Notes under the pieces: model-generated | Databases searched by the model: none | Seen by the model: the letters and a program-made list of their open reading frames with translations, nothing else | Told to the model about the DNA's origin: nothing | NCBI GenBank assembly: GCA_019635635.1 | Contig: JAHBZB010000001.1 | Location: 124,001 to 188,000 of the forward strand | Direction: 5' to 3' | Length of the DNA: 64,000 nucleotides | Source: Xanthobacteraceae bacterium | GTDB taxonomy: Bacteria; Pseudomonadota; Alphaproteobacteria; Rhizobiales; Xanthobacteraceae | Part shown: in pieces, positions 13,750 through 17,568 of the stretch | Layout: each line of letters opens with the position of its first letter | How positions within the stretch are numbered: the stretch's first letter is position 1 | Translations under genes and position numbers: made by a program

Positions 13750-14637
13750 GTGGCAAAGCGCGCAAATCCGACACGCGAAATTCAAGCGACCTGGGGCGGC
13801 GCGCCGCTCGAGAAAATGCGGCACTTTCTCGAGCACCCTACGACCGAGCGCGTGCTTGCCGGACTGATCACCTTGAACGCGCTGGTGCTCGGCCTCGAAA
13901 CCAGCACGAAGCTCATGGCAAAATACGGCTGGCTGCTCGAGCCGCTCGATCACATCCTGCTCGGCATTTTCGTGGTCGAAGTTCTGGTGCGCCTGCTCGT
14001 CACCGGCCGCGGCTTCTTCCGCGATCCGTGGAACGTGTTCGACTTCATCGTGATCACGCTCTCGCTGATGCCGCAGACCGGGCCGCTTTCGGTGCTGCGT
14101 GCGCTGCGCATCCTGCGCGTGCTGCGTCTCGTTTCCGCGGTGCCGACGCTGCGGCGCGTGGTCGGCGGTCTGATCGGCTCGATGCCCGGCATCGGCGCGA
14201 TCGCGTTCCTGCTGACGCTCGTCTATTACTGCTTCGCGGTGATGGCGACGAATTTGTTCGGACCCGATTTTCCCGAATGGTTCGGCAACATCGCGAAATC
14301 GTCCTACACGCTCTTTACCGTCATGACGCTGGAGGGCTGGAACGAACTCGCGAACAAGGTGATGGAGAAACATCCCTATGCGTGGCTGTTCTTCATTCCG
14401 TACATTCTGACCACGACCTTCACGGTGCTGAACCTCTTCATCGCGATCATCGTGACCGCGATGCAGAACGAAGCCGACAAAATCCGTGAGGCGGAAGAAC
14501 GCGAACACCGCGAGGAACAGCAGGCGCTGCAATCGCTCAAATCGAAAGAGTCGGTCATTCTCGAAGAATTGCAGGCGATGCGCGCGGAAGTGCGCGCGCT
14601 TTCGAGAAAGAAAAAAAAGAAGCCGGCTGCCCGCTAG
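13750..14637 (+). CDS. Voltage-gated-type ion channel (NaV/bacterial ion transporter family)
   Basis: The 295-aa protein has six membrane segments of a single-domain bacterial channel. S4 carries regularly spaced arginines (about residues 117-136: RALRILRVLRLVSAVPTLRR). The pore loop contains FTVMTLEGWNE with TLEGW at 193-197, matching the TLExW selectivity filter of NaV-type channels. S6 follows (about 215-240), then a Glu/Arg-rich coiled coil that would mediate tetramerisation. It starts at GTG 13750. Its end overlaps the convergent dCTP deaminase gene by 4 bases. Confidence 0.85.
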   Translation: MAKRANPTREIQATWGGAPLEKMRHFLEHPTTERVLAGLITLNALVLGLETSTKLMAKYGWLLEPLDHILLGIFVVEVLVRLLVTGRGFFRDPWNVFDFIVITLSLMPQTGPLSVLRALRILRVLRLVSAVPTLRRVVGGLIGSMPGIGAIAFLLTLVYYCFAVMATNLFGPDFPEWFGNIAKSSYTLFTVMTLEGWNELANKVMEKHPYAWLFFIPYILTTTFTVLNLFIAIIVTAMQNEADKIREAEEREHREEQQALQSLKSKESVILEELQAMRAEVRALSRKKKKKPAAR

Positions 14638-15767
14638 AGCGGCTTGAAGTGCTTGGAGAGTTTCAGGCCCTGCGCCTGATAATTCGAGCCGACTTCGCCG
14701 TATAGTTTCTCCGGCCGCTCGGTCAGGCGCTCGTAGACGAGACGGCCGACGATCTGTCCGTCCTCGAGCATGAACGGCACCTCGCGCGAGCGGACTTCCA
14801 GCACCGCGCGCGCGCCATGACCACCGGCCTGCGCGTGGCCGAATCCGGGATCGAAGAAGCCCGCGTAATGCACGCGGAATTCGCCGACCAGCGGATCGAA
14901 CGGCACCATCTCGGCGGCGTATTCCGGCGGAACGTGCACGGCTTCCTTCGAGGCGAGAATGTAAAACGCATCCGGGTCGAGCACGAGGCGCTTCGACGAG
15001 TGCGCAGGCAACGGCTCCCAGAAATCCATCACGTCGTAGCCCGCGCGCTTGTCGACATCGATCAGGCCGGTATGACGCTTGGCGCGGAAACCGGCGAAGC
15101 CCTTGCCGAAGTCGGAAAGATCGACCGAGACCGCAACTCCGCCACCGCGCAGATCCGGCTCGGCGGCGCTTACCAAGGTTTCGCGCGCCTGCAAGGCGGC
15201 GAGTTCTTTCACGTCCAGTTTCGCTTCGCCGCGGCGAAAGCGGATTTGCGAAAGACGCGAGCCGCGCCGCACCAGAACCGGAAAGGTGCGCGGCGCGATT
15301 TCAAGATAGAGCGTGCCGGTATAGCCCGCCGGAATCGTGTCGAAGGCGGCGACACGATCGCCGATCACGCGCGTGAACACGTCGAGACGGCCGGTCGAAC
15401 TTTTCGGATTGGTCGCGGCGGCAATGTCTTGTGGCAGCGCGAGCCGCTCCTCGACTTCGACGATGTAGACGCAGCCGGTTTCCAGCACCGTGCCGTCCGC
15501 GTTCAGCGAAATCGAATGCAGCGCGAGATCGTCGAGGCGTTCGGCGATCGGCGTCTTGCTCGACGGCAGAAAGCTCGCGCGGATGCGCCAGGCGCGCGCG
15601 CCGAGCCGAAGATCAAGCGACGCCGGTTGAATCTGGTCGGCGTCGAAATCGCGCTCGGCCACGATCGCCTTCTTATCCGCGAGTTCGCGGATCGCGCGCG
15701 CCGGCAGGATGCCCTGCGACATTCCTTGGACGGCTTGCGGGAGGCGGTGCGCGGCGGCGGTTTCCAT
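14634..15767 (-). CDS. dcd: dCTP deaminase, double-length form
   Basis: This ~377-aa protein carries two consecutive dUTPase-fold halves. The first has GILPARAIRELAD, IQPASLDLRLG and the catalytic-type TNPKSSTGRLDVFTRV. The second has VDLSDFGKGFAG, a YILASKEAVHVPPEY strand and a C-terminal YGEVGSNYQAQG. It converts dCTP to dUTP for thymidylate synthesis. Duplicated forms of this length are usual in alphaproteobacteria, while E. coli Dcd is about 190 aa. I chose the ATG at 15765-15767; a GTG nine bases upstream is the alternative. It is single and convergent with the channel gene. Confidence 0.9.
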   Translation of the reverse strand: METAAAHRLPQAVQGMSQGILPARAIRELADKKAIVAERDFDADQIQPASLDLRLGARAWRIRASFLPSSKTPIAERLDDLALHSISLNADGTVLETGCVYIVEVEERLALPQDIAAATNPKSSTGRLDVFTRVIGDRVAAFDTIPAGYTGTLYLEIAPRTFPVLVRRGSRLSQIRFRRGEAKLDVKELAALQARETLVSAAEPDLRGGGVAVSVDLSDFGKGFAGFRAKRHTGLIDVDKRAGYDVMDFWEPLPAHSSKRLVLDPDAFYILASKEAVHVPPEYAAEMVPFDPLVGEFRVHYAGFFDPGFGHAQAGGHGARAVLEVRSREVPFMLEDGQIVGRLVYERLTERPEKLYGEVGSNYQAQGLKLSKHFKPL

Positions 15768-15829
15768 CCACTTCACCTAGAATAGGCAGAACTTGACGCC
15801 AAGCGCGTGGGAGGCATAATCCCCGCACT

Positions 15830-15885
15830 TCGTGGTCATTTGAGCCGGCCGGCTTGCAGCCACGTAAAATAAATCGCTAAAAGGC
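15830..15885 (+). ncRNA. SAM-II riboswitch
   Basis: The conserved SAM-II core is present. P1 strand CGTGG (15831-15835) pairs with CCACG (15860-15864). The loop carries TCATTTGAGCCGGCCGGCTTG (in part), and the 3' pseudoknot strand CGCTAAAAGG follows an A-rich linker. It sits 68 bases upstream of metZ, a standard location in Rhizobiales, and should sense S-adenosylmethionine. Confidence 0.93.
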
Positions 15886-15898
15886 CGGGGACGCGTGT

Positions 15899-15934
15899 AC
15901 CCGGCTCATGGGCTAACCCCCCGGCCGGGTTTTT
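15899..15934 (+). terminator. Intrinsic terminator, SAM-II expression platform
   Basis: A 7-bp stem (acccggc 15899-15905 / gccgggt 15924-15930) is followed by TTTTTG just upstream of the metZ ribosome-binding site. The strand ggccgggg (15883-15890), overlapping the aptamer's 3' end, is complementary to ccccggcc (15919-15926). It could form an antiterminator in competition with this hairpin, so control looks transcriptional. Confidence 0.7.
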
Positions 15935-15952
15935 GTTTGGAAGGACCGCGTC

Positions 15953-17161
15953 ATGACCGTGAAGATTCCCCGCCCCGCTCCCGATGCCGCATCGCTGCGT
16001 CCGGAAACCCGCCTGATCCATTCGGGCATCCTGCGCTCGCAGTTCGGCGAAAACGCCGAGGCGCTCTACCTGACACAGAGTTTCGTTTACGACAGTGCCG
16101 AGCAAAGTGCCGCGCGCTTCCGGGGCGAAGACGACGGCTTCATCTATTCGCGCTTTTCCAATCCCACGGTCGCGATGTTCGAGGAGCGCCTCCGCGCGGT
16201 CGAAGGCGCGGAAGCGGCCCGCGCGACCGCGACCGGCATGGCGGCGGTGACCTCCGCGCTGCTTTGCTTTCTCAAGGCGGGCGATCACGTAGTCGCGGCC
16301 CGCGCGCTGTTTGGTTCCTGCCGTTACGTGATTGAGGAACTGCTGCCGCGCTTCGGGATCACCTCGACGCTGGTGGAAGGCACCGACCTGAAAGCATGGG
16401 AGAATGCGATCCGCCCGGAAACACGCGCCTTCTTCCTCGAAAGCCCGACCAATCCGACGCTCGAAATTCTCGACATCGCGGAGATCGCCAAACTCGCGAA
16501 AAAGGCGAAGGCGACGTTCATCGTCGACAACGTGTTTGCGACGCCGCTCCTGCAAAGCCCGCTCGCGCTCGGCGCCGATGTCGTCTGCTATTCCGCGACC
16601 AAGCACATCGACGGCCAGGGCCGATGTCTGGGCGGCGCGATCCTCGGCTCCCAGCAATTCGTCAAAGACCATCTGCATACGTTCCTGCGCCAGACCGGCC
16701 CGGCGATGTCGCCGTTCAATGCCTGGGTGCTGCTTAAGGGCATCGAGACGATGCAGATCAGAATCGAGAAAGCGCAGGACAACGCGCTTAAAGTGGCGGA
16801 CTTTCTCGCGGGAAAGCCGAAACTCAAAAAGGTGCTCTACCCGTTCCGGAAAGATCACCCGCAATACGAGCTTGCGAAGCGCCAGATGAAAGGCGGCTCG
16901 ACGCTCTTGTCGTTCGAGGTCGAGGGCAACCAGGCGGGCGCGTTCCGCTTCGCGAATGCGCTGCGGCTGATCCGCATTTCCAACAACCTCGGCGACGCGA
17001 AAAGCCTGCTCACGCATCCCGGCACCACGACGCACCAGCGCTTCACGCCGGAAGCGCGCGCGGAAATGGGCATCGGGGAAGGCCTGTTGCGGCTTTCGGT
17101 CGGCCTCGAGCACCCCGACGACCTGATCGAAGATCTGTCTCGCGGGCTTGCGGCGGTCTGA
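15953..17161 (+). CDS. metZ: O-succinylhomoserine sulfhydrylase
   Basis: The 402-aa PLP enzyme of the Cys/Met-metabolism family condenses O-acylhomoserine with sulfide to give homocysteine. The PLP lysine is in YSATKHIDGQGR (Lys217). Upstream are EGAEAARATATGMAAV, IVDNVFATP with the cofactor Asp, and a C-terminal SLLTHPGTTTHQR. Length and residues fit MetZ rather than cystathionine synthase. It begins at the ATG at 15953 after a ggaagga site and is controlled by the SAM-II riboswitch. apaG follows after 14 bases and is probably co-transcribed. Confidence 0.93.
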   Translation: MTVKIPRPAPDAASLRPETRLIHSGILRSQFGENAEALYLTQSFVYDSAEQSAARFRGEDDGFIYSRFSNPTVAMFEERLRAVEGAEAARATATGMAAVTSALLCFLKAGDHVVAARALFGSCRYVIEELLPRFGITSTLVEGTDLKAWENAIRPETRAFFLESPTNPTLEILDIAEIAKLAKKAKATFIVDNVFATPLLQSPLALGADVVCYSATKHIDGQGRCLGGAILGSQQFVKDHLHTFLRQTGPAMSPFNAWVLLKGIETMQIRIEKAQDNALKVADFLAGKPKLKKVLYPFRKDHPQYELAKRQMKGGSTLLSFEVEGNQAGAFRFANALRLIRISNNLGDAKSLLTHPGTTTHQRFTPEARAEMGIGEGLLRLSVGLEHPDDLIEDLSRGLAAV

Positions 17162-17175
17162 TTATAATCGCGGGC

Positions 17176-17568
17176 ATGTATCGCGCGACCACCCGCCAGG
17201 TTCAGATCACGGTAACGCCGGAATATTCGTCCGAACGCTCCGAGCCGGACGAGGACGAATATTTCTGGGCCTATACGATCGAGATTCTCAATCTCGGCGA
17301 AGAAGCCGTGCAGCTCATCTCGCGGCACTGGATCATTACCGACGCGAACGGCCGCACCGAGGAAGTCAAAGGGGCCGGCGTGGTCGGCAAGCAGCCTCTT
17401 CTGCGGCAGGGCGAGCGCTTCGAATACACGAGCGGCGTGCCGCTCAAGACGCCATCGGGTTTGATGCGCGGCACGTATCAGATGGTGACGGAAGACGGCG
17501 AGGACTTCGACGCCGAGGTGCCGGCATTTTCGCTGGACGCGCCGTCGATGAAGCGCGTGGTGCACTAG
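17176..17568 (+). CDS. apaG: ApaG domain protein
   Basis: The 130-aa protein covers the ApaG/DUF525 beta-sandwich: ITVTPEYS, YTIEILNLGEEAVQLISRHW, ITDANGRTEEVKGAGVVGKQPLL and FEYTSGVPLKTPSGLMRGTYQM. ApaG proteins bind Mg/Co ions or pyrophosphate-like ligands. The E. coli protein was linked to cobalt resistance and Mg efflux, but the molecular role is unsettled. It follows metZ closely, an arrangement common in Rhizobiales, so it likely shares the SAM-regulated transcript. The end faces the small exported protein gene 30 bases away. Confidence 0.92.
   Translation: MYRATTRQVQITVTPEYSSERSEPDEDEYFWAYTIEILNLGEEAVQLISRHWIITDANGRTEEVKGAGVVGKQPLLRQGERFEYTSGVPLKTPSGLMRGTYQMVTEDGEDFDAEVPAFSLDAPSMKRVVH

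Follow-up and report, generated by a model that had tools for sequence, protein, structure and literature searches.

The leader of metZ in the window (the whole 64,000-nucleotide stretch of DNA that was analysed) very probably carries a SAM-II riboswitch that turns metZ, and probably apaG as well, off by premature termination of transcription. The switch would hinge on a single strand, GGCCGGGG at 15883–15890, for which three partners compete. When SAM is bound, this strand would be locked in the pseudoknot P2 with 15845–15850, the terminator at 15899–15930 would form, and RNA polymerase would release an RNA of about 105–110 nt. Without SAM, the same strand would take the 5′ arm of the terminator (15900–15906) once that arm has been made and could later move to 15919–15926; either of these antiterminator pairings would break the terminator, such that transcription reaches metZ. 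From the sequence we infer that the leader RNA binds SAM and terminates in response to it, and from modelled folds the order in which these events occur.

The SAM-II aptamer that the earlier note recognized here is matched by the whole SAM_alpha model in an Rfam search (RF00521; model positions 1–79 of 79, E 5e-15) at 74.9 bits, the gathering score being 36 bits, and both P1 and P2 are present (Table 1). It is the only SAM-II match in the 3.37 Mb genome to which the window belongs and the only Rfam riboswitch match of any kind in the window, which holds no second aptamer. It is placed upstream of a methionine biosynthesis gene: NCBIfam models confirm that metZ and apaG follow, and spacing and strand suggest that apaG is probably on the metZ transcript. 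A promoter-like hexamer pair precedes the aptamer, and transcription would be expected to start near 15827. Pairs of this kind, scoring at least 9 of 12, were found at 13 of 156 SAM-II loci among the matches listed and at 0 of 148 control stretches; because so few loci have one, it is the genus only that backs the promoter of the window's leader. On the minus strand, a divergent gene of the dCTP deaminase family (2′-deoxycytidine 5′-triphosphate deaminase; 14634–15776; NF005734, 591 bits) has its start some 40 nt away from the −10 element ahead of metZ.

Table 1. Features of the metZ leader and the genes that follow it, in window coordinates.
Feature	Position	Strand	Support
Promoter-like TTGACG-16 nt-CATAAT	15793–15820	+	10/12 matches; hexamers invariant in 7/7 aligned same-genus loci
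SAM-II (RF00521) aptamer	15822–15900	+	74.9 bits, full model
Aptamer stem P1: 15831–15836 with 15859–15864	15831–15864	+	Rfam alignment; bases checked
Pseudoknot P2: CCGGCC 15845–15850 with GGCCGG 15883–15888	15845–15888	+	Bases checked; covaries across relatives
Antiterminator 1 (putative): 15883–15889 with 15900–15906 (terminator 5′ arm)	15883–15906	+	Folding, base check, covariation
Antiterminator 2 (putative; proposed in the earlier note): 15883–15890 with 15919–15926	15883–15926	+	Exact 8 bp; invariant in 7/7 genus loci
Intrinsic terminator: 15899–15906/15923–15930, inner stem 15910–15912/15917–15919, then TTTTTGTTT	15899–15938	+	Folding, base check
Likely Shine-Dalgarno GGAAGGA of metZ, outside the aptamer	15939–15945	+	Sequence
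metZ, O-succinylhomoserine sulfhydrylase	15953–17161	+	NCBIfam TIGR01325, 563.6 bits (cut-off 510)
apaG	17176–17568	+	NCBIfam NF003967, 173.2 bits (cut-off 106)

Between P2 and the metZ open reading frame lies the intrinsic terminator, which the earlier note had placed at 15899–15934: an 8-bp stem enclosing an inner stem of 3 bp, after which come T residues at 15930–15934, a G and a further TTT. In isolation it folds with −19.4 kcal/mol (z −2.1) when set against shuffled sequences, 5 of 200 of which do equally well. A generic scan of the 2-kb region showed no excess of terminators (3 found, 2.7 expected), and folds of the full leader had no extra stability over shuffles (z −0.48). Since the generic scan gave no excess, the reality of the terminator rests on its conservation within the genus and on a survey of relatives.

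For this survey, SAM-II matches were found in 39 of the 41 genomes searched, the window's genome included; of the 53 places that the search gave, three scoring under the family cut-off, one of them a partial match, were left out. A pattern scan gave at least 119 stretches, and as the pattern demands a canonical core, the sample leans toward canonical members and is less than the whole family. Among the matches listed, 169 loci were read, 9 of which lacked the aptamer pattern (leaving 160), 2 were exact duplicates (158) and 4 were followed by fewer than 140 nt of sequence (154). The genes downstream of the 158 loci were metZ-like in 95 cases (by tblastn, which may include close paralogues), metA-like in 25 (by an N-terminal motif) and other in 38. 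A terminator at least as stable as −12 kcal/mol lies in the 140 nt downstream at 140 of the 154 loci among the matches listed and is found in 58 of 462 shuffled copies; these counts come from the stricter of two scans, the looser one, with hairpins up to 60 nt, having given some spurious long folds.

Such a frequency of terminators weighs against the notion that the riboswitch acts chiefly on translation, with P2 covering the ribosome-binding site and the hairpin merely incidental. The metX SAM-II riboswitch is modelled as acting on translation (PMC10907184), and the translational view of the class stems from this well-studied example and its structure (PMC9373788, PMC10907184). The metX crystal structure shares the aptamer class with the window's leader, but its ribosome-binding site is inside P2, whereas the window's likely Shine-Dalgarno sequence lies about 50 nt beyond P2, behind the terminator. 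A Shine-Dalgarno sequence inside or beside P2, the mark of a translation-controlling SAM-II element, was thus not found in this leader, and direct covering of the ribosome-binding site was set aside on the position of the site. We consider action chiefly on translation extremely unlikely here. More widely, SAM-II is described as the one aptamer most often tied to terminators in alpha- and beta-proteobacteria (Barrick and Breaker 2007, PMC2258182).

Control by termination would require that the terminator compete with P2 for sequence. The pairing of GGCCGGGG with CCCCGGCC reported in the earlier note (15883–15890 with 15919–15926, ahead of metZ and apaG) is exact at those coordinates. The same strand has a second partner, absent from that note, in which 15883–15889 pairs with 15900–15906 through six G-C pairs and one G-U pair. 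Both antiterminators exclude the SAM-bound state, because 15883–15890 contains the 3′ strand of P2, which SAM binding would lock; the P2 strand can pair with terminator sequence as well, and by computation the two states are mutually exclusive. Taken in isolation, the terminator has an energy of −18.9 kcal/mol, the 5′-arm pairing −14.2 and the pairing with 15919–15926 −22.8. Nascent RNAs with their 5′ end at 15827 were folded at equilibrium, a treatment that takes no account of pausing, of how fast the polymerase moves, or of what the pseudoknot and SAM contribute in energy. When the strand is free, the 5′-arm pairing has a probability of 0.98–0.99 for the 3′ ends examined between 15905 and 15920, the pairing with 15919–15926 reaches 0.99 at 3′ ends 15926–15927, and beyond these the RNA is shared between the two. 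For 3′ ends from 15930 to 15938, the same folds give the terminator a probability of 0.04–0.09 with the strand free and of 0.97–0.99 when P1 and P2 are kept in place.

In the window's genus, the pairing with 15919–15926 may keep the terminator open once the 5′-arm pairing has opened the race, because it has the stronger isolated energy and follows in the nascent folds, a model without kinetics. One might go further and envision a two-step antiterminator, in which the P2 3′ strand would sit on 15900–15906 first and then be handed to 15919–15926 as this emerges; we regard this as a tentative and rather doubtful possibility for the genus, which, if true, could prolong the time in which SAM can act.

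When the P2 3′ strand is blocked in the folds, the terminator probability goes from 0.01–0.22 to 0.97–0.98 in the window and six other same-genus loci. Across the loci with a terminator (equilibrium folds, among the matches listed), a rise of at least 0.5 occurs in 34 of 90 metZ-type loci, in 10 of 33 others and in 0 of 17 of the metA type. Leaving the strand free still lets the terminator prevail in many relatives, and a rise of this size in only 34 of 90 metZ-type loci means that the simple fold model fails to separate the two states in most relatives, which may reflect the missing kinetics or a weaker coupling. The metA leaders appear from these folds to be without P2-strand coupling, in line with the S. 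meliloti metA terminator, for which no response is predicted (PMC9373788). Such cases lend some plausibility to a terminator in the window that is real but uncoupled from SAM, one that would set a constitutive limit on metZ and yield a small RNA from the leader, the role suggested for the metA terminator of S. meliloti. The strong response of the same-genus loci argues against it, as does the covariation of the P2 strand with the terminator 5′ arm; a SAM-uncoupled terminator is thus very unlikely in this leader, and coupling of the terminator to P2 is the preferred reading.

Which of the two pairings serves as antiterminator was addressed by comparison of the 140 loci with a terminator. The P2 3′ strand forms its stronger duplex with the 5′ half of the terminator in 97 of these and with the 3′ half in 43 (among the matches listed), and every same-genus locus in the test, the window's and six others, falls among the 43. 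Perfect Watson-Crick runs of at least 6 were found, again among the matches listed, with the 5′ and 3′ halves respectively in 55/90 and 16/90 loci upstream of metZ, in 1/17 and 4/17 upstream of metA, and in 20/33 and 2/33 upstream of other genes.

Covariation across alphaproteobacteria points the same way. The P2 3′ strand occurs as GGCCG, GACCG, GGTCG and other types, and the word CGGTC is present in the terminator 5′ half at 14 of 21 metZ loci with GACCG versus 6 of 55 with GGCCG (among the matches listed; Fisher p 3e-6, a value that ignores kinship and is too small because the loci are related). In the terminator 3′ half, CGGTC was found at 0 of the 21 GACCG metZ loci listed. One Shinella locus (L079) has all three strands changed jointly, the P2 5′ strand to CCGGTT, the P2 3′ strand to AACCGG and the terminator 5′ arm to CCGGTT. 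When partners were swapped between metZ loci, the mean run with the 5′ half fell from 5.83 native to 5.12 (200 swaps, maximum 5.38), and that with the 3′ half from 4.67 to 4.48, where at least one swap attained the native value, the maximum being 4.72. In terms of duplex energy across the 140 loci (among the matches listed), none of the 200 swaps was as strong as the native pairing for either half, which means that the 3′ half, too, carries some signal. Chance complementarity as a source of the pairings was set aside by the shuffle and swap tests.

These comparisons suggest that in metZ-type SAM-II leaders the antiterminator is mainly the P2 3′ strand paired with the terminator 5′ arm. The pairing of the earlier note is present and adds strongly to it in the window's genus, a stronger 3′-half pairing being found also in a minority of other loci. 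Both of its sides are invariant in the 7 same-genus loci that could be aligned (an eighth same-genus genome has its aptamer cut off by a contig end), which is conservation by identity and uninformative on covariation; across the family it is the 5′-arm pairing that is conserved as an alternative pairing. That 15883–15890 with 15919–15926 would be the sole functional antiterminator is therefore unlikely. It is the strongest of the isolated alternatives and unchanging in the genus, but the 5′-arm pairing forms earlier in the nascent folds and is the one that covaries, the 3′-half duplex prevails at a minority of loci, and the CCC of 15917–15919 is also required by the inner stem of the terminator.

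Transcriptional attenuation of metZ, which the earlier note had put forward as a useful variant of SAM-II control, remains the best reading of the sequence, but the novelty premise was wrong, because terminators after SAM-II aptamers were reported by Corbino in the 2005 discovery paper (after many of the aptamers; PMC1273637), by Barrick and Breaker in 2007 and by Scheuer in 2022 (PMC9373788). The last of these predicts termination on SAM binding for S. meliloti metZ and reports an RNA of about 100 nt whose level goes up with SAM as that of metZ mRNA goes down; this RNA is higher in rich medium and drops with lowered metK expression, and the mRNA does the opposite. The S. meliloti metZ element, with its RZ sRNA, shares with the window's leader the aptamer class, the gene and a terminator predicted to form on SAM binding, and its terminated RNA compares with the 105–110 nt expected here; it belongs to another genome and has a different leader sequence, the comparison covering class, gene and terminator. 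From the arrangement described in PMC2258182 (a promoter just upstream, a P1/P2 aptamer, a terminator and an OFF switch) the window shows no difference of substance. In tandem SAM-II/SAM-V leaders, SAM-II is said always to precede an intrinsic terminator among the 120 original examples (PMC9481103), an order that the window shares, without the second aptamer. In 26 of the 30 alphaproteobacterial genomes of a regulon study, SAM_alpha lies upstream of metY (PMC4239095), and we infer that this metY corresponds to metZ here.

The window's leader is therefore a real, well-formed and ordinary example of an arrangement described since 2005, and the addition made here is comparative, covariation indicating that the main antiterminator of metZ-type leaders is the P2 3′ strand paired with the 5′ arm of the terminator. 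This changes the field little; it is of modest use in marking the antiterminator strand of the SAM-II expression platform in these leaders. No direct demonstration in vitro that any SAM-II riboswitch terminates transcription in a SAM-dependent way was found in the literature searched, and the compact leader of the window would suit such a test.

A few loci of the survey have unusual downstream regions. Directly downstream of the core in four metZ SAM-II leaders (L048, L129, L146 and L161), a detectable terminator was not found. By eye, the P2 3′ strand of L048 and L161 is complementary to a CCCGGCC segment tens of bases downstream, near the metZ start and without a T run, perhaps a different expression platform. 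In L013 and L154, the region after the SAM-II core has a long hairpin that ends in CACCGGGTTTTTT, and a second similar word and T run follow close behind, possibly two consecutive terminators.
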